IMG/VR virus record: IMGVR_UViG_3300042905_003214 | Location: 1-44,190 of that record | DNA from: a virus | Direction: 5' to 3' (one strand) | Length of the DNA: 44,190 bases | Shown: positions 18,083-24,691 of the stretch, piece after piece | Layout of the letters: the number at the start of each line of letters is the position of its first letter | Position numbering within the stretch: position 1 is the first letter of the stretch | Translations under genes and position numbers: made by a program | Notes under the pieces: generated by a model | Database searches by the model: none | Seen by the model: the letters and a program-made list of their open reading frames with translations, nothing else | What the model was told of the DNA's origin: nothing

Positions 18083-20376
18083 GCAACGGAACGAAAGTCG
18101 TTAAGAGAAATGGTAAAACTGAACCACTTGATTTAAATAAACTCCACGTTATGGTGGAAGAAGCCTGCAAAGACCTAGCAGGTGTATCAGCATCTCAGGT
18201 AGAGATGCAATCAGGCATTCAATTCTATGATGGTATCACTACCGCAGAGATTCAGGAGATTCTGATTCGTTCTGCTTCTGACCTGATTGATCTGGATCAT
18301 CCCAACTATCAATTCGTTGCTGCTCGCCTGCTTCTGTTCGCCCTCCGTAAGCAGTTGTTTGGTCGTATGCATGAATGCCCCACAGTTAAGCAGCACGTCC
18401 TTCGTGCCGTTGGTAGAGGTGTCTATGACCCAGAAATTCTTACCCTATACTCTGATGATGAGTTTGATAAACTTCAGTCGTTTATTGATCATAGTCGTGA
18501 CTATCTGTTCACTTATGCAGGTCTACGTCAAGTCGTTGATAAGTACCTCGTGCAGGACAGAAGTTCTAACGAACTTTATGAGACGCCACAGTTTATGTAC
18601 CTTTTGATTGCGGCGACAATCTTTTCCAAGTATCCTAAAGAAACACGTTTAGATTACGTTAGGAAGTACTACGATGCAATCTCCAAGCACAAAATCAACA
18701 TTCCCACACCTATCATGGCGGGAGTGCGAACTCCACTTCGACAATATGCTAGCTGTGTTCTTGTTGATGTTGATGACACCCTCGATAGCATCTTTAGTTC
18801 TGATATGGCTATCGGCAGATATGTTGCACAAAGGGCGGGTATCGGCATCAACGCGGGTCGCATCCGTGGCATCAACAGCAAAATCAGAGGCGGAGAAGTT
18901 CAGCACACAGGTGTTGTCCCTTTCCTCAAAAAGTTTGAAGCAACTGTCCGATGCTGCACTCAAAATGGCATCAGAGGTGGATCAGCAACTGTCCATTTTC
19001 CAATCTGGCACCAAGAAATAGAAGATATTCTAGTATTGAAAAATAATAAAGGAACCGAAGATAATCGTGTTCGTAAGTTAGACTATAGTATCCAAATCTC
19101 CAAACTGTTCTATGAACGCTTCATCCGCAACGAAGAGATTTCTCTCTTCTCTCCCCACGCCGTTCCTGGCTTGTATGATGCTTTTGGTACTGATGGATTT
19201 GACGAGTTGTATGTTCGTTATGAACGAGATGAGTCTATTCCAAGAAAAACTATCGGAGCTCAAGAACTCTTTTTGGACCTCCTGAAAGAGAGAGCAGAAA
19301 CAGGTCGTTTGTACATTATGAACATTGACCACTGTAACTCTCACTCATCCTTTATGGATAAGGTTGAGATGAGCAATCTGTGCCAGGAAATTACTCTACC
19401 TACCAAACCAATTCAACATATTGATGACCCAAATGGTGAGATTGCTCTATGCATACTTTCTGCTATTAATGTTGGAAAAATTCGGGATAACGAGGATCTT
19501 GAAGTGCTTTGCGATCTTGCTGTTCGCTCTCTTGATGAACTTATTGATTTTCAAGGATACCCCGTCAATGCAGCAGAAATCGCCACCAGGGCACGTCGTT
19601 CGCTTGGGGTAGGGTTTATTGGTCTGGCACACTATCTCGCCAAGCACGGCGAGCATTACGACGATCCTGGTGCTTGGAGACTGGTACATGAACTTACCGA
19701 AGCATTTCAGTATTACCTAATTCAGGCAACTGTTAATCTTTCGAAAGAAAAAGGTGCTTGTGAGTATAGCAGCCGAACAAAATATGGCAATGGCATTCTC
19801 CCGATTGATACATACAAGAAGGACGTTGATGAAATTGTACCTAACGAATTGAAGTATGATTGGGAGCATCTTAGAGAGCAGGTACTCAAATACGGGGTAC
19901 GGAACTCAACATTGTCCGCACAGATGCCATCGGAGAGCAGTTCCGTTGTGTCAAATGCAACCAACGGAATCGAACCACCTCGCGGATACTTGTCCGTTAA
20001 GAAGTCGAAGAAGGGACCACTCAAGCAGATTGTTCCCCAGTATCAAACACTTAAGAACAACTATACGCTGCTGTGGGATATGCCTAGCAATCGCGGGTAT
20101 ATTCATATTGTTGCTGTTATGCAAAAATTCTTCGATCAAGCGATTTCTGGAAACTGGTCCTATAATCCAGAAAATTACCCAGATAATGAAGTTCCTACTT
20201 CAGTAATGGCACAGGACCTTCTAACTACATATAAGTACGGCTGGAAAACCAGTTACTATCAAAATACTTATGACCATAAGACTGATGAGGTTGAAGAAAC
20301 CAAACAGTCTCTTGATAACTTAATTTCCGATATTCTAGACACGGAGGAGGAAGATTGTGAGTCTTGTAAGATTTAA
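18079..20376 (+). CDS. nrdA: Ribonucleotide reductase class I alpha subunit
   Basis: The 765-residue protein has an N-terminal ATP cone (VVKRNGKTEPLDLNKLHVMVEE), which implies dATP control. Active-site cysteines are in QYASCVLVDVDD, MSNLCQEI and IALCILSAINV, and a C-terminal redox pair is in DCESCKI. It reduces ribonucleotides to deoxyribonucleotides for phage DNA synthesis. The conserved NATNGIEPPRGYLS and TLLWDMPSNRGYI segments match class Ia enzymes. nrdB follows after 22 bp. Confidence 0.98.
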   Translation: MSNGTKVVKRNGKTEPLDLNKLHVMVEEACKDLAGVSASQVEMQSGIQFYDGITTAEIQEILIRSASDLIDLDHPNYQFVAARLLLFALRKQLFGRMHECPTVKQHVLRAVGRGVYDPEILTLYSDDEFDKLQSFIDHSRDYLFTYAGLRQVVDKYLVQDRSSNELYETPQFMYLLIAATIFSKYPKETRLDYVRKYYDAISKHKINIPTPIMAGVRTPLRQYASCVLVDVDDTLDSIFSSDMAIGRYVAQRAGIGINAGRIRGINSKIRGGEVQHTGVVPFLKKFEATVRCCTQNGIRGGSATVHFPIWHQEIEDILVLKNNKGTEDNRVRKLDYSIQISKLFYERFIRNEEISLFSPHAVPGLYDAFGTDGFDELYVRYERDESIPRKTIGAQELFLDLLKERAETGRLYIMNIDHCNSHSSFMDKVEMSNLCQEITLPTKPIQHIDDPNGEIALCILSAINVGKIRDNEDLEVLCDLAVRSLDELIDFQGYPVNAAEIATRARRSLGVGFIGLAHYLAKHGEHYDDPGAWRLVHELTEAFQYYLIQATVNLSKEKGACEYSSRTKYGNGILPIDTYKKDVDEIVPNELKYDWEHLREQVLKYGVRNSTLSAQMPSESSSVVSNATNGIEPPRGYLSVKKSKKGPLKQIVPQYQTLKNNYTLLWDMPSNRGYIHIVAVMQKFFDQAISGNWSYNPENYPDNEVPTSVMAQDLLTTYKYGWKTSYYQNTYDHKTDEVEETKQSLDNLISDILDTEEEDCESCKI

Positions 20377-20398
20377 AACAGGTTTGGAGGAAAAATCA

Positions 20399-21541
20399 AT
20401 GGTCGAATCAATGACCGTTTTTAATCCTCAGGAAGTAGATACCAAAAAGCAACCTATGTTTTTTGGACAACCACTGGGAATACAGAGATATGATTCTTAC
20501 AAATACCCAATCTTCGATAAACTAACCACACAGCAACTGGGTTACTTCTGGAGACCCGAAGAGGTTTCTCTTCAAAAAGATCGTAGCGACTATCATATGC
20601 TACGCCCAGAGCAAAAGCATATCTTCACCAGCAACCTGAAGTATCAGGTGATGCTGGACTCAGTTCAGGGTAGGGGTCCTGGTATGGCATTTGCTCCATA
20701 CTGCTCCCTTCCTGAACTGGAAGCGTGTATGAAGGTTTGGGAGTTTATGGAGATGATCCACTCCCGTTCATACACTTATATCATCAAGAATGTTTATTCG
20801 GACCCATCTGAAGTTTTTGATACGATTCTGAAAGAGGATCGTATTATGGAACGTGCCGTGAGTGTCACTCAGGCATATAACGATTTCATCAACAGTGCCC
20901 AGCATTATGGTTCAACTAATGAATGGATTCATGCGTTAGAACAAGTACCATACGCACAAGAGGCAAGGTATGAACTCAAGAGAAAACTATTCAGAGCAGT
21001 TGCAAACGTTAATATTCTTGAAGGTATTCGCTTTTACGTCAGCTTCGCTTGTAGTTTTGCGTTTGGCGAACTCAAGCTTATGGAAGGAAGTGCAAAAATC
21101 ATCTCACTGATTGCCCGTGATGAGAACCAACATTTGGTTATCACTCAGAATATTCTGAACAAATGGAAAGAGGGTGATGACCCTGAGATGGCACGTATCT
21201 CCAAAGAAGAAGAGCAATGGTTTTACAAGACCTTTGAGAATGCTGTCAATCAAGAAAAACTTTGGGCAGAGTATCTGTTCAAGGATGGTTCTATGATTGG
21301 TTTAAATGATAAACTTCTTCAGCAATATGTCGAGTGGATTGCCAATCGTAGAATGAAGGCAATTGGACTCAAACCACTTTATGATATTCCTGCGAAAAAT
21401 AATCCACTTCCTTGGACTGAGCATTGGATCAGTTCTAAAGGTCTTCAAGTGGCGCCACAGCAAACGCAAGTGCAGTCATATATTGTTGGTGGTATTAAGC
21501 AGGATGTTACCAAAGACTCTTTTGCTGGGTTCCAGTTGTGA
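20399..21541 (+). CDS. nrdB: Ribonucleotide reductase class I beta subunit
   Basis: I start at the ATG at 20399, which has a GGAGG site at 20386-20390; the frame is open to a GTG at 20357 that lies inside nrdA. The 380-residue protein has iron ligands in PELEACMKVWEFMEMIH, the radical-tyrosine context HSRSYTYII, and further ligands in ILKEDRIME and ARDENQH. The C-terminal tail TKDSFAGFQL binds NrdA. That tail is duplicated downstream at 22603-22641, after a homing endonuclease cassette. Confidence 0.97.
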   Translation: MVESMTVFNPQEVDTKKQPMFFGQPLGIQRYDSYKYPIFDKLTTQQLGYFWRPEEVSLQKDRSDYHMLRPEQKHIFTSNLKYQVMLDSVQGRGPGMAFAPYCSLPELEACMKVWEFMEMIHSRSYTYIIKNVYSDPSEVFDTILKEDRIMERAVSVTQAYNDFINSAQHYGSTNEWIHALEQVPYAQEARYELKRKLFRAVANVNILEGIRFYVSFACSFAFGELKLMEGSAKIISLIARDENQHLVITQNILNKWKEGDDPEMARISKEEEQWFYKTFENAVNQEKLWAEYLFKDGSMIGLNDKLLQQYVEWIANRRMKAIGLKPLYDIPAKNNPLPWTEHWISSKGLQVAPQQTQVQSYIVGGIKQDVTKDSFAGFQL

Positions 21542-21570
21542 TTGACATTAAGACTGAAATAGTGTATTAT
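21542..21570 (+). promoter_or_regulatory. Early promoter for the GIY-YIG endonuclease gene
   Basis: TTGACA at 21542-21547 and TATTAT at 21565-21570 are spaced 17 bp apart, immediately after the nrdB stop. The last base is shared with a late promoter. Confidence 0.75.
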
Positions 21571-21600
21571 ATAAATAATAATAGGTAAGTTCAGTCTTAA
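21548..21600 (+). repeat. 11-bp inverted repeat enclosing the endonuclease promoters
   Basis: TTAAGACTGAA (21548-21558) and TTCAGTCTTAA (21590-21600) are perfect complements with a 31-nt loop. The loop holds the -10 element, the late promoter and the GGTAAG ribosome site; the 3' arm ends one base before the endonuclease ATG. Read-through RNA from nrdB can form the hairpin, while RNA started from the internal promoters lacks the 5' arm. T4 I-TevI uses the same kind of switch. Confidence 0.75.
21570..21577 (+). promoter_or_regulatory. Late promoter TATAAATA inside the hairpin loop
   Basis: An exact TATAAATA overlaps the early -10 by one base and lies 24 bp before the ATG at 21602. Confidence 0.72.
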
Positions 21601-21601
21601 A

Positions 21602-22216
21602 ATGAATAATTATATTCTTTACTACTACTTAAGGGAGGACTTTGGTTCTCCCTTTTATGTGGGATATGGGAAACCAAGAAGAATACACGCAAAACATTTG
21701 AGAAGTAATGGTGCAAATCTATTACCACCAAGAGAAAGAAGATGGGTTGTAAAATCTGGTCTTACTAAAGAAGAAGCAATAGAGTTAGAAATAAAACACA
21801 TAGCACTTTGGAAAAGAGAGTGTGATGGTGGTGTATTATTAAATCAAAATCTTGGTGGTGAAGGAAAACCTGGAGGACAAAAAACAATAGGTTTTGGTGG
21901 CAGAAAACACACCGAAGAAGCAAAGAAAAAAATAAGCGAAAAGGTTGCTGGTAAAAATAATCCAAGATATGGTGTTAAACTTTCACAAGAAACAAGAAAT
22001 AAAATAAGTCAAAATAGAGCACCAAAATTTGGAAAAGATAATCCAAACTCTAAAACTTGGAAAATCACTTCTCCAGAAAATAAAGAATATATTATTGTTG
22101 GTGGATTAAAGAAATTTTGTAAATCTCAAAGTATTTCTTATGCAACAATGAATGCAGCAATACTTTATGACAGAAAAGGACCGAGAAAAAATGGATGGTC
22201 AATTGAGAAAATTTAG
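21602..22216 (+). CDS. GIY-YIG homing endonuclease with NUMOD-type DNA-binding modules
   Basis: The 204-residue protein has a GIY-YIG-type start (YILYYYLREDFGSPFYVGYGKPRRI, residues 4-28) and a catalytic-glutamate region (EEAIELEIKHIALW). NUMOD3-like repeats follow (GRKHTEEAKKKISEKVAGKNNPRYG, then LSQETRNKISQNRAPKFGKDNP), and a helix-turn-helix-like end (GGLKKFCKSQSISYATMNAAI). Such free-standing enzymes cut an allele lacking the insertion and so spread their own gene. It sits immediately after nrdB, whose T4 homolog hosts I-TevIII. Confidence 0.88.
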   Translation: MNNYILYYYLREDFGSPFYVGYGKPRRIHAKHLRSNGANLLPPRERRWVVKSGLTKEEAIELEIKHIALWKRECDGGVLLNQNLGGEGKPGGQKTIGFGGRKHTEEAKKKISEKVAGKNNPRYGVKLSQETRNKISQNRAPKFGKDNPNSKTWKITSPENKEYIIVGGLKKFCKSQSISYATMNAAILYDRKGPRKNGWSIEKI

Positions 22217-22604
22217 AGTATCACTACCTGAAGATGAGTGTGTGATGAAACTTCAGGAGTATTGTAAGTTTTCTTCTACTTTACTGAAGATCCCTGTTAT
22301 TAAAAAACCATTATGTATTGATGCAAACTGCCACAATAATGTAAATCATTATGTGAATACTTATGGCGGAGAAAAGATAAGTGGATACTATTTGATTACA
22401 GATACTGAAGATGAAACTTATGGATGTGCAATATATCATAGTATCTGGAAAAATACTTATGGAGATCTAGTTGATATAACTCCATTTGAGGATGGTAGAG
22501 AATATAATATGTTTTCCGTTATGAATACTACAGAATATTACTCTGGGGTTGCATATGATGGAAAAAGATATAAATTATTAGAACCAGGACTTAACATAAT
22601 CTAA
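22191..22604 (+). CDS. Conserved hypothetical protein within the homing cassette
   Basis: I start at the ATG at 22191, which overlaps the endonuclease gene by 26 bp; the frame is open to 22152. The 137-residue protein has a conserved-looking CHNNVNHYVNTYGGEKISGYYLI motif and aromatic beta strands after it. I do not recognise an enzyme signature. It ends 1 bp before the nrdB tail duplicate and travels with the endonuclease between the two nrdB ends, so it looks like cargo of the homing insertion. Confidence 0.7.
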   Translation: MDGQLRKFRVSLPEDECVMKLQEYCKFSSTLLKIPVIKKPLCIDANCHNNVNHYVNTYGGEKISGYYLITDTEDETYGCAIYHSIWKNTYGDLVDITPFEDGREYNMFSVMNTTEYYSGVAYDGKRYKLLEPGLNII

Positions 22605-22641
22605 TGTTACCAAAGATACTTTCTCAGGATTCCAACTATGA
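22603..22641 (+). pseudogene. nrdB: Duplicate of the nrdB 3' end (12 codons plus stop)
   Basis: This stretch encodes NVTKDTFSGFQL-stop; the true NrdB ends DVTKDSFAGFQL-stop at 21503-21541. The offset is exactly 1100 bp. Over the last 38 bases I count 9 mismatches, mostly silent, with only S/T and A/S changes beyond the first codon. It marks the far edge of the endonuclease cassette and overlaps the start of the next gene in another frame. Confidence 0.88.
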
Positions 22642-22765
22642 TGAATGGTGCGAACAGGAAATCCTGAACGCATATCAGGAAGCGGCAGAGTGCGATGAGT
22701 TTCTTTTTGGAGATTATGATTATTCCAAAGAATGGTTGGGTAAATGCAATGACGATGTGAAATGA
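22604..22765 (+). CDS. Small acidic protein whose start overlaps the nrdB tail duplicate
   Basis: The 53-residue protein starts at the ATG inside the duplicated nrdB tail and reads MLPKILSQDSNYDEWCEQEI and on to a terminator. The same frame in the intact nrdB end also starts MLPK before stopping after 13 codons. So the ancestral nrdB and this gene probably overlapped, and the duplication kept both complete. It is acidic, with several Tyr and Cys. Function unknown. Confidence 0.72.
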   Translation: MLPKILSQDSNYDEWCEQEILNAYQEAAECDEFLFGDYDYSKEWLGKCNDDVK

Positions 22766-22788
22766 GGGTCTTCGGACCCTCTTTTTTT
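22764..22788 (+). terminator. Terminator with UUCG tetraloop
   Basis: The 7-bp stem GAGGGTC/GACCCTC with a TTCG loop is followed by seven T. The last T starts the next late promoter. Confidence 0.92.
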
Positions 22789-22795
22789 ATAAATA
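22788..22795 (+). promoter_or_regulatory. Late promoter TATAAATA
   Basis: An exact TATAAATA begins in the terminator T run, 28 bp before the ATG at 22824. The same terminator-to-late-promoter junction occurs at 15501. Confidence 0.8.
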
Positions 22796-22823
22796 AAATT
22801 ATAGAAAAATCATAAAAGAAAAG

Positions 22824-24134
22824 ATGTCTAGACTTACAGGTAATGAAGTTGCAAATATGATGGAAGCATATAGTGCTGTCTATGCTCCTCAACAAGAAGA
22901 AGTTGTAGAAAATGTTGAGAAGATCGATGAAAAAATGGATGTATTTTCTACACCTGCTATGAAATCTGCACAACAACAATCTGCCACTCAACTTTTGACA
23001 GGTAAAAAACCACCAGCTAAACCAGATTATCTTAAACCAGCTGTAACTGCAGGAGCAGCAAAGTTCTTCACTAAACCAGGTGCTGAAACTGATAAATCTT
23101 GGGAAGTCGCTAGACAAAAAGCTGGTGTATCAAAACCTACACGTCCAGCAGGTTCAGGTAATCCTCCAGCAGGTTCAGGTAATCCTCCAGCAGGTTCAGG
23201 GAATCCACCAGCAGGCACTAAAACCGCTCCTGCTGCCTCTTCAGTCGTTCTTGCCAAGCAAGGTGGTGTAGAAGGTAAATTAGATAAGGCAACTGGTAAA
23301 TTCACTGCAGGTGCCTTTACAGGTGCTGAGAAAGAGCGTTATGTTGCTCGTGGTGGTAGTGCTGCTCCTTCTGCACCAAAACCAGCGGCACCAGCACAAC
23401 CAAAGATTAAACAAGATGTCGCTGATATTAAAGCAATGCAAACGGCTTCTCAGATGAGACAGGCAGGTGCAAATGTTACATCAGACCAATTAAAGACACC
23501 ACCATCAACCGCTGTTAATACATCACAAGCGACCGCAGCAGCATCTAATCTTAAAGCACCAGACCCCGCCACAAAATTCTCACAGGGAACTGCTGCAACC
23601 CCTAAACCAGTAGAGAATAAACCAACAACAGGTTTTGATCTTGCTAAAAAGGGTGTAAATCTTCAATCCCAATCCTTTGATATATTTGATATCATCAAGG
23701 GTCATCTTCTTGATGAGGGTTATGCCGAAACTGAAAAAGCAGCTCTTGCTATTATGGCAAATATGGGTGAAGGGTGGAAAAAAGAAATTCTTGATGAGAT
23801 TGCACCTGCATTACTTGCTGGAGGTGTGCTTGCTAGTGGTGCTTTAGCGGCTATGGCAGCAAAAAATAAAATTGACAGAAGCAATGCTGCCAGAGCAAAT
23901 ACTAATCCATTTGCAAATCAACAAACTAAACCACTTCCTAGCACTCCTTCACCATTTGCTAAACCAGCAAGTAAGGATGACAGTGGTAGATTAACAACCT
24001 ATGGTGCTGGCGGCGGTGCTGCAGCAGAAAAAACAGGTCAAACTCGTGCCCAAGTTATGCAGCAAGGTGGTAAGAATCTTGAAAATAAAAACAAAATCAA
24101 ACCAGTAAATCAAGGAACAGATTTCGGTCGTTGA
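22824..24134 (+). CDS. Ala/Pro-rich probable head-internal or structural protein
   Basis: The 436-residue protein begins MSRLTGNEVANMMEAYSAVY. It has a disordered Pro/Ala/Gly middle with PAGSGNP repeats, then an ordered module FDIIKGHLLDEGYAETEKAALAIMANMGEGW and the segment ILDEIAPALLAGGVLASGALAAM. The latter resembles the IDE-MLPALAAGAALLAA segment of the 695-residue protein at 13147. Several L-D-E and I-D-E sites fit prohead protease cleavage. Late promoter and own terminator suggest a single-gene late transcript. The virion role is inferred. Confidence 0.76.
   Translation: MSRLTGNEVANMMEAYSAVYAPQQEEVVENVEKIDEKMDVFSTPAMKSAQQQSATQLLTGKKPPAKPDYLKPAVTAGAAKFFTKPGAETDKSWEVARQKAGVSKPTRPAGSGNPPAGSGNPPAGSGNPPAGTKTAPAASSVVLAKQGGVEGKLDKATGKFTAGAFTGAEKERYVARGGSAAPSAPKPAAPAQPKIKQDVADIKAMQTASQMRQAGANVTSDQLKTPPSTAVNTSQATAAASNLKAPDPATKFSQGTAATPKPVENKPTTGFDLAKKGVNLQSQSFDIFDIIKGHLLDEGYAETEKAALAIMANMGEGWKKEILDEIAPALLAGGVLASGALAAMAAKNKIDRSNAARANTNPFANQQTKPLPSTPSPFAKPASKDDSGRLTTYGAGGGAAAEKTGQTRAQVMQQGGKNLENKNKIKPVNQGTDFGR
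23145..23216 (+). repeat. 21-bp tandem repeat encoding PAGSGNP
   Basis: Three full 21-bp units (23145-23165, 23166-23186, 23187-23207) plus 9 bases of a fourth are nearly identical, in frame, and encode PAGSGNP. The near identity suggests recent slippage and a copy number that varies. Confidence 0.9.
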
Positions 24135-24154
24135 TATAATCATAACATAATTCT

Positions 24155-24182
24155 AAGCACCTCTTGACAGGGGTGCTTTTTT
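24155..24182 (+). terminator. Terminator with a promoter -35 in its loop
   Basis: The stem AGCACCT/GGGTGCT (one T-G pair) is followed by six T. The loop contains TTGACA at 24164-24169. Confidence 0.85.
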
Positions 24183-24193
24183 ATTGCTAGAAT
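24164..24193 (+). promoter_or_regulatory. Early promoter overlapping a terminator
   Basis: TTGACA (24164-24169) and TAGAAT (24188-24193) are spaced 18 bp. It is about 50 bp upstream of the gene at 24242. An ATAAATA at 24213-24219 may add late expression. Confidence 0.72.
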
Positions 24194-24241
24194 CGCTTTG
24201 CTAGGGTTGAAGATAAATAATAGCTCATAAAGATTCTTAGT

Positions 24242-24691
24242 ATGAGTTATGAAAACCCTTGGAGATTCAATGGGGAAATTTTTGAGTCTTCTGATATTCA
24301 AGATAATTTTGGTTTCGTTTATCATATTCACTGTAATAAAACTGGTCGTAGTTATATTGGTAGAAAGTATTTCTGGTCTTTCCGCACACCAAGAGGAAAA
24401 TCTAGAAAAGTTAAGTCAGAGTCCGATTGGAAAAGATATTACGGCTCCTGTCCTGAACTCAAAGCCGATATTGACATTTGGGGAAAAGCATCCTGCGACA
24501 GAAGAATACTTAGCCTCCATAAAACAAAAGGACAGTGTAACTACGAAGAAACAAAACAGCTTTTCCTAAATAATGTGTTGATCGAGTCTCTTGACGATGG
24601 GAGTCCAGCGTATTACAATAGTAATATCCTAGGACGCTACATGCGAAAAGATTATGGAAATTTTGGAAAAGACTCTGAAACAATCACATGA
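24242..24691 (+). CDS. GIY-YIG-like endonuclease family protein
   Basis: The 149-residue protein has FGFVYHIHCNKTGRSYIGRK at residues 23-42, a GIY-YIG-type pair with a conserved tyrosine in each strand. SDWKRYYGSCPELKADI and EETKQLFLNNVLIES follow, the latter supplying a likely metal-binding glutamate. It resembles SegE-like phage proteins. No NUMOD modules are present and the ends look compact. Whether it is a homing enzyme or a repair/processing nuclease cannot be decided from sequence. Confidence 0.78.
   Translation: MSYENPWRFNGEIFESSDIQDNFGFVYHIHCNKTGRSYIGRKYFWSFRTPRGKSRKVKSESDWKRYYGSCPELKADIDIWGKASCDRRILSLHKTKGQCNYEETKQLFLNNVLIESLDDGSPAYYNSNILGRYMRKDYGNFGKDSETIT

Follow-up and report, generated by a model that had tools for sequence, protein, structure and literature searches.

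Organization of the nrdB locus

We have analysed a virus record of 44,190 bases (IMG/VR record IMGVR_UViG_3300042905_003214; this whole stretch is referred to as the window), in which a selfish DNA-cutting gene of a freshwater cyanophage appears to have landed in the gene of an essential enzyme and to have brought an altered gene end with it. The features given below between 20399 and 22781 lie on the + strand. The host gene of the insertion is nrdB (20399–21541), which encodes the small subunit of the class Ia ribonucleotide reductase (RNR) and matches both the Pfam family Ribonuc_red_sm (E 1.3e-54) and the E. coli R2 chain 1jpr (E 1.3e-121). Its start was assigned by analogy with the annotation of Synechococcus phage S-SKS1; this phage and S-SRM01 carry its nearest relatives among the phage records searched.

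nrdB is complete, with its own stop codon, and is followed by a cassette of 1062 bp (21542–22603) that is absent in empty relatives; the gap between nrdB and the next gene is +1062 with the cassette and −38 without it. The cassette contains a leader, the open reading frame (ORF) of a putative homing endonuclease (21602–22216) and a passenger gene, ORF2 (22191–22604), which overlaps the end of the endonuclease gene and, by a single base, the start of the next one. The latter, hereafter the small gene (22604–22765), encodes 53 amino acids, overlaps nrdB by 38 bp in empty relatives, and is followed on its 3′ side by a hairpin resembling an intrinsic terminator (22764–22781). A group I intron or an intein was also considered and rejected, as nrdB is complete upstream of the insert and requires no splicing; a search for Rfam introns in 21300–22900 gave no match up to E 1.

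The end of nrdB is present twice around the cassette. This repeat had been noticed earlier from the sequence, and the original prediction was that an endonuclease gene had been inserted between its two copies. We compared 21504–21542 with 22604–22642 and observed that 30 of the 39 positions are identical at a spacing of exactly 1100; within the 38-nt overlap, 9 positions differ between the copies, the number of mismatches given in that prediction. The outer copy was the best match to the 39-mer across both strands of the window, with a runner-up of 24/39, and 200 shuffles of the 39-mer gave a maximum of 25 matches within 20000–24500. Translated in the nrdB frame, the inner copy (21504–21541) reads DVTKDSFAGFQL and the outer copy (22604–22641) reads NVTKDTFSGFQL, each followed by a stop. 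The mismatches had been described as mostly silent. This is true of the nrdB frame, where 2 residues change among the 11 codons lying wholly within the repeat, and does not hold for the small-gene frame, where the inner copy would encode a different peptide; it begins with MLPK and stops after 13 codons, as had been noted.

Resident and replacement ends of nrdB

If the cassette had entered an overlap, relatives lacking the endonuclease should have nrdB and the small gene overlapping by about 38 bp and should match one of the two copies. Among the small-gene loci (the best 80 of 547 IMG/VR relatives), nrdB and the small gene share exactly 38 bp, without an insert, in 60; the endonuclease and ORF2 are present in 14; 5 loci are truncated by a contig end; and 1 (L024; L numbers denote our loci) was dropped for a premature stop in nrdB. 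The same overlap is annotated in the cassette-free phages S-SKS1, RB11-B and P-SSM2. Other phages depart from it: the annotated overlap is 4 bp in S-SRM01 and Sf-FS3 and 1 bp in DSL-LC03, S-T4 has no annotated overlapping gene, and in S-SCSM2R and S-CREM1 a stop directly follows the corresponding ATG.

The empty relatives match the outer copy: in L007, L008 and L010, among others, the overlap has exactly its sequence. The inner copy shows 8–11 differences in 38 positions from any of the empty haplotypes. When 32 distinct inner/outer pairs were compared with the empty 38-mers, the outer copy was the closer one in 26 and the inner in 4, with 2 ties. Along the locus, the window nrdB is 95–98% identical to its nearest empty relatives, L007 and L008, up to ~21100; from there the identity drops in steps to 82% and reaches 76% within the inner copy. 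Beyond the cassette, identity is back at 100% for the outer copy and stands at 94% for the remainder of the small gene. These comparisons identify the outer copy as the resident nrdB end, which was displaced and now serves only to begin the small gene; the inner copy is another nrdB end, one that arrived with the cassette. The insertion of an endonuclease gene and the predicted 38-bp overlap of nrdB with the next gene are thus supported. The accompanying proposal, that the insertion copied the shared stretch so that both genes stay intact, is contradicted, since the inner copy is a different end common to carriers across backgrounds. In each of the 26 inner haplotypes, the inner end stays open up to a terminal stop, and it is distinct from the resident end in the window and in most pairs, L179 being the exception.

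In carriers, the two copies vary according to the frame that each one serves. Variation among the 26 inner haplotypes is highest at the nrdB third positions (0.52 versus 0.28 and 0.13), and among the 20 outer haplotypes at the small-gene third positions (0.40 versus 0.22 and 0.21); L001 was omitted from this count. The small-gene frame is interrupted by a stop in 11/26 inner haplotypes and is without its ATG in another one; the nrdB frame contains stops in 6/20 outer haplotypes. Some of the inner ends may never have had an overlap. These patterns suggest that nrdB and the small gene are released from dual coding in the carriers.

Relics of the resident end and the insertion point

Relics of the nrdB end also persist after the cassette in carriers with a different downstream gene or with none; in phages without the overlapping gene, 31–40 nt of the resident nrdB end are present. 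Two further locus sets comprised 80 of 124 and 80 of 102 relatives, and with all three sets capped at 80, less common arrangements may have escaped notice. Searching by pattern for the right flank of a phage without the small gene yielded 16 loci of a second lineage. In the 12 empty ones the nrdB end runs directly into the flank, and in the 4 inserted ones a relic of 31–37 nt lies between the cassette and the resident flank. Using 66 of 68 inserted loci (two were too short), we observed that the relic exceeds the highest null score in 45, with its left edge mostly at −38 (range −42 to −31; positions are counted back from the end of nrdB). This edge puts the insertion point near codon 364 in E. 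coli numbering. The junction falls at almost one and the same position whichever gene, if any, follows nrdB. On this evidence, the insertion point is inside nrdB, 12 codons before its stop.

In the window lineage, the insertion point coincides with the ATG of the small gene. Relics with no small gene following, or with its ATG lost, are found in L105/L106, L136, L179, L099, L108 and L118. As the relic is kept in phages without the overlapping gene, the target would be nrdB itself and the rescue of the overlap a by-product; the small gene would survive because of where the insertion point happens to fall.

Recoded codons upstream of the insertion point

The nrdB end of the window differs from the empty alleles upstream of the repeat as well. 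At 21461–21475, it reads QTQVQ in place of ETEVE; this stretch is the putative target of the endonuclease, and its recoding would confer resistance. We counted the motif in distinct nrdB ends, omitting insert-free loci with <600 nt after nrdB. ETEVES is present in 42 of 43 empty ends, the remaining one being that of S-SRM01 (EVEIEQ), and in 1 of 61 carrier ends (L179).

The carriers were divided by the type of their endonuclease: A and C types have a C-terminal domain with the motif SYATM in common but distinct catalytic parts, and B types combine the A catalytic part with another C-terminal domain. ETEVES was seen in 0/37 A-type, 1/12 C-type, 0/10 B-type and 0/2 unclassified ends. The A-type ends mostly read QTQVQS or ETQVQS, and the B-type ends ETEIES or ETEQET. 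A glutamate-to-glutamine (E-to-Q) change at one or more of the three E sites occurs in 33/37 A-type and 11/12 C-type ends, compared with 0/10 B-type and 0/43 empty ends.

A quick tree built from positions −1000 to −200 of nrdB, its body (110 rows), implies at least 21 changes of the insertion state and 19 of the motif. Sixteen supported independent pairs were available, and the motif follows the insertion in 14 of them, goes the opposite way in 0 and shows no difference in 2 (p 1.2e-4). We also compared 38 carriers with their nearest empty relative (body identity >85%): identity is 0.896 in the body, 0.785 from −110 to −38 and 0.747 in the last 38 bp, as against 0.925, 0.878 and 0.984 in 32 empty–empty controls. 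The controls are closer in the body and their last 38 bp are held by dual coding, and therefore only the contrast from −110 to −38 is telling. Compared with the empty L028, the window has 22 differing codons among the last 40, and five amino acids are changed. The linkage of recoding to the cassette is a new element of the system.

Aligned with E. coli R2, the first changed residue corresponds to E350 and the tyrosine downstream to Y356 (hand-counted on chain 1jpr); Q occupies the E350 position in 29 of the 61 distinct carrier ends. As of 2015, there was no evidence for a role of E350 according to the accessible part of PMC5968753, and substitution of this residue disrupts inter-subunit radical transfer according to that of a 2024 preprint (PMC11482829).

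Transfer footprints

We scanned 33 pairs of carriers sharing at least 95% of the first 600 nt of the insert for change-points in nrdB. A clear change from few differences near the cassette to many farther away was found in six pairs, five of them distinct (L104 repeats L103), with near-identical nrdB tracts of 498, 108, 108, 111 and 80 bp beside the cassette and divergence beyond. The longest, a putative co-conversion tract of ~498 bp (21044–21541; change-point at −498), is common to the window and L067, a carrier in a different background. These two have 5 differences in the last 505 nt of nrdB, 2 in the 1062 bp of the insert and 0 in the first 50 nt of the small gene; outside this shared part, nrdB has 74 differences between −1180 and −506, and identity in the remainder of the small gene is 83%. 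The nrdB of L022 is identical to that of the empty L028 upstream of −481 and to that of the window from −498 on. As the downstream side of L022 is also window-like, L022 by itself shows a crossover and not a bounded tract. Across loci, the nrdB block from −150 to −38 has partly lost its coupling to the nrdB body (0.43 versus 0.72–0.79). Recent transfers, where detectable, include 80–498 bp of nrdB.

The endonuclease and ORF2

The putative endonuclease of the window has a GIY-YIG-like N-terminus, a NUMOD3 domain (residues 100–136; Pfam E 7e-14) and the C-terminal domain with SYATM. In its family, A2, Pfam detects NUMOD3 in 32/32 members, LEM-3_GIY-YIG in 9 and GIY-YIG in 6, so that the assignment as a homing endonuclease is by family profile only; the A2 profile also matches a GIY-YIG chain of the PDB (E 1.2e-4, positions 4–51). 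An AlphaFold model of the protein (pLDDT 62.5; best Foldseek match I-HmuI, E 0.017) was too weak to use. The contents of the cassettes vary, the endonuclease being accompanied by ORF2, by a third ORF, by both or by neither.

ORF2 has 62 invariant columns across 38 homologues, with invariant Cys, His and Asp residues (CHNNV, YHSIW, DITP). It is present in all 14 inserted small-gene loci and absent in the B-type cassettes looked at. We found no credible match for it in Pfam, NCBIfam, PADLOC or the PDB; its sole PHROGs match below E 0.3 is PHROG 37148 (unknown function; E 3.2e-7), it matches one unannotated phage record (E 2e-3), and its AlphaFold model (pLDDT 42.6) is not usable. In L145 (4596–5045), ORF2 continues in frame into the relic nrdB end (...GLNVVQDVKKDTFSGFQL), apparently as a fusion. 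The third ORF, ending in DEGYAET...AIMVNMSEEW, lies between the endonuclease and the relic in L119, L124, L154, L158 and L160–L163, and a similar motif is present in the window gene 22824–24134.

The leader of the endonuclease gene

The leader contains a predicted hairpin (21548–21600; arms 21548–21558 and 21590–21600), the 3′ arm of which terminates just before the start codon. Between its arms lies TATAAATA (21570–21577), a T4-type late promoter element that is found in 37 of 39 distinct leaders and that corresponds to the T4 late promoter consensus. The set of 39 does not include L120, L200 and L245, which were removed by hand, or L141 and L247, which gave no start. Covariation was analysed in 35 of the 39 leaders. 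We observed that 97.1% of the cells pair (88.0 in shuffles) and that 30 cells are altered on both sides (6.8 in shuffles); one of the five measures, further pair types, was not above the shuffles, 88/500 of which reached the observed value.

A sigma-70-like promoter, TTGACA-17-TATTAT, with 11/12 matches, overlaps the leader (21542–21570). The number of such sites in the region is not above that of shuffles, and a pattern search of the listed B- and C-type leaders found none. There is no operator-like copy of the target in the leader, the best 20-mer having 13 matches and shuffles up to 14.

The hairpin would conceal the ribosome site on read-through RNA, and the late promoter inside it would give an RNA without the 5′ arm. 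Such control is described for T4 I-TevI, where a hairpin hides the ribosome site and the late RNA, made from a suitably placed late promoter, lacks it; the free-standing segB and Aeh1 mobE are listed with similar arrangements (both from the accessible part of PMC2988022). As in I-TevI, the hairpin arms of the cassette flank the late-promoter element directly before the start codon; unlike I-TevI, the cassette has no intron, and its leader control is predicted from sequence. By this analogy, the endonuclease is probably made late in infection.

A model for the cassette and its alternatives

We consider it very probable that the block is a mobile homing-endonuclease cassette residing within the nrdB coding sequence and carrying its own replacement for the nrdB 3′ end. 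The endonuclease would cut the end of an empty nrdB around codons 350–364 (E. coli numbering), and repair from the carrier would copy the recoded end together with the cassette. The recoding would protect the carrier from its own enzyme and NrdB would be kept whole, giving both immunity and rescue. The displaced end would survive as the start of the small gene, the insertion point coinciding with the ATG of this overlapping gene, and the two frames sharing 38 bp would be freed from each other. A site confined to the outer 38 bp, which are unchanged in the window, would be cut by the carrier's own enzyme; the site must therefore extend beyond −38 on the upstream side, and it is there that the codon changes lie. 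The one-sided upstream tracts would fit a cut upstream of the insertion point, a geometry known for I-TevI.

To a more specific form of this model we give an even chance. Here, the cassette is a natural viral cleave-and-rescue homing drive: the endonuclease attacks the codons of the radical-transfer tail (the E350–Y356 region), the cassette carries an uncuttable end, different DNA-binding domains with different recodings form immunity groups, and Q at E350 is the price or the tolerance of immunity.

Several observations weigh against these proposals. Cleavage and homing by the cassette endonuclease are deduced from sequence only, and a Pfam scan with the window protein by itself gave no GIY-YIG match. 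The link of the type of recoding to the C-terminal domain has exceptions: 4/37 A-type ends are without an E-to-Q change (ETEITS in 2, ETEQET in 1, ETENES in 1). L179 has a C-type cassette with the unchanged ETEVES and an inner end nearly identical to its relic, which may reflect a very recent insertion or an inactive enzyme. The cassette-free isolate S-CREM1, which is outside the 43 empty ends counted, reads ETEIES as six B-type ends do; at least the B-type change therefore also exists outside carriers. Moreover, empty and inserted loci were fetched with different queries, and 21 of the 66 inserted loci have no relic above the null. In the transfer scan, seven of the 33 pairs are identical or nearly so throughout and hence uninformative, several show the reverse step, and others show no such step; the five distinct pairs were selected by their signature, and so finding the inner copy within each tract does not count as independent evidence. 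In the long run, the nrdB end is only loosely linked to the cassette. Distances of nrdB and endonuclease are uncorrelated (r at most 0.23, 31 loci), the inner 38 bp track the nrdB body (0.57) over the endonuclease leader and 5′ part (0.40; 23 loci), and the outer 38 bp track the small gene and the endonuclease equally (0.51 each; 23 loci).

From the distribution of the motifs, we infer that the recoded end acts as a cut-resistant rescue end. The recoding could also merely hitch-hike, if the cassette first came to lie beside an nrdB ending in QTQVQ and homing dragged this end along with no protection, and we regard this as a real possibility, though on the doubtful side. One-sided co-conversion alone would spread a linked end, and the cassette of L179 with its unchanged motif, the four A-type ends lacking the E-to-Q change and the B-type motif of cassette-free S-CREM1 would all fit. 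However, there are several distinct changed motifs, whose kind largely matches the C-terminal domain (E-to-Q in A and C, an altered intervening residue in B), and the unchanged outer 38 bp imply a site extending upstream of −38, where the changes sit. The motifs have few independent origins, so the case is not decisive. We think it unlikely that the cassette is ancestral and that the 38-bp overlap arose by its precise excision, although the flanking repeats would permit recombination between the copies and the 21 parsimony changes cannot separate gain from loss. Distant named cassette-free phages have the 38-bp overlap, the nrdB frame is open to its stop in 14 of the 20 outer haplotypes, relics are present where no gene requires them, and the bounded tract shared with the cassette by L067 and the window favours gain. 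Some losses of the cassette may well have occurred.

A duplication selected to keep the small gene has less still in its favour. All 20 outer haplotypes have the ATG and an open small-gene frame, an argument that is partly circular because the loci were chosen by their match to the small gene, whereas relics of similar length are found where the small gene is absent or its ATG lost. These relics contradict the saving of the small gene as the cause of the duplication; it may explain the retention. A transposon-like target-site duplication, in which a staggered cut copied the 38 bp and the copies later diverged, is rejected in its plain form and seems to us highly improbable. The almost identical inner end and relic of L179 would suit it, but elsewhere the inner end differs from the resident one, the sequence departs from that of empty relatives already upstream of the repeat, and the length of the relic varies. 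The insert ORFs of the window match no transposase family in Pfam, PHROGs or NCBIfam; terminal repeats beyond the direct repeats were not searched for.

Relation to known systems

The system closest to the proposed cassette is that of the fungal mitochondrial mORFs, described for atp6, atp9, cox2 and nad3 of Glomus sp. and, as cited there, for atp6 of Allomyces macrogynus (accessible part of PMC3630166). In both, an endonuclease ORF lies near the 3′ end of an essential gene and a foreign C-terminus is in phase, the native C-terminus is a downstream relic, and the inserted and native ends differ in DNA. The fungal elements are mitochondrial, whereas the cassette is phage-borne, and the accessible part of PMC3630166 describes neither an overlapping next gene reusing the relic nor upstream codon changes tied to the DNA-binding domain of the endonuclease.

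In T4, several of the free-standing GIY-YIG (Seg), HNH (Mob) and Hef endonucleases target nrd genes (accessible part of PMC2988022). They resemble the cassette in having their genes beside the probable target, in flank co-conversion, in ORF overlaps and in their nrd targets. They differ in that those reviewed there lie between genes or split a gene (mobE in Aeh1 nrdA, mobA in gene 60); a replacement gene end with a relic is not described in that part of the review. Our literature search found no report of this arrangement in phages, a weak negative as subscription journals were mostly outside its coverage.

The logic also resembles that of engineered drives with target disruption and rescue, such as TARE, in which a nuclease acts against an essential gene and an altered, uncuttable copy is supplied (accessible part of PMC7046741). 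The cassette differs in being natural and viral and in replacing only the 3′ end of the gene, with a resistance that is putative. Drives of the engineered kind carry a 'recoded' copy.

If the proposed mechanism is true, phages use the replacement-C-terminus trick known from fungal mitochondria, and its state has changed many times within a single set of cyanophages; the cassettes then offer a natural system whose sequences reveal immunity recoding, a counterpart of rescue-type drives. They would also make overlapping genes the subject of a natural experiment with replicates, in which one 38-bp stretch serves two frames in empty phages and each copy a single frame in carriers, and would provide natural NrdB proteins with Q at the E350 position, of use to RNR biochemistry.

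Additional observations

In Synechococcus phage DSL-LC02 (L248:1–431), a putative endonuclease is annotated immediately upstream of nrdB, perhaps marking a second endonuclease site in the neighbourhood. The window ORF at 24242–24691 matches Pfam SegE_GIY-YIG (E 1.5e-50), yet its PHROG, 447, is labelled 'NAD synthetase'; a coding sequence in the same neighbourhood of S-SKS1 bears this label too, and the label is probably an error. In the nrdB genes of L024 and L120, both omitted from the tail counts for their premature stop, an in-frame stop (TAG in L024, TAA in L120) replaces the Gln codon of the relatives, which may be due to a sequencing error, a broken gene or stop-codon reassignment.

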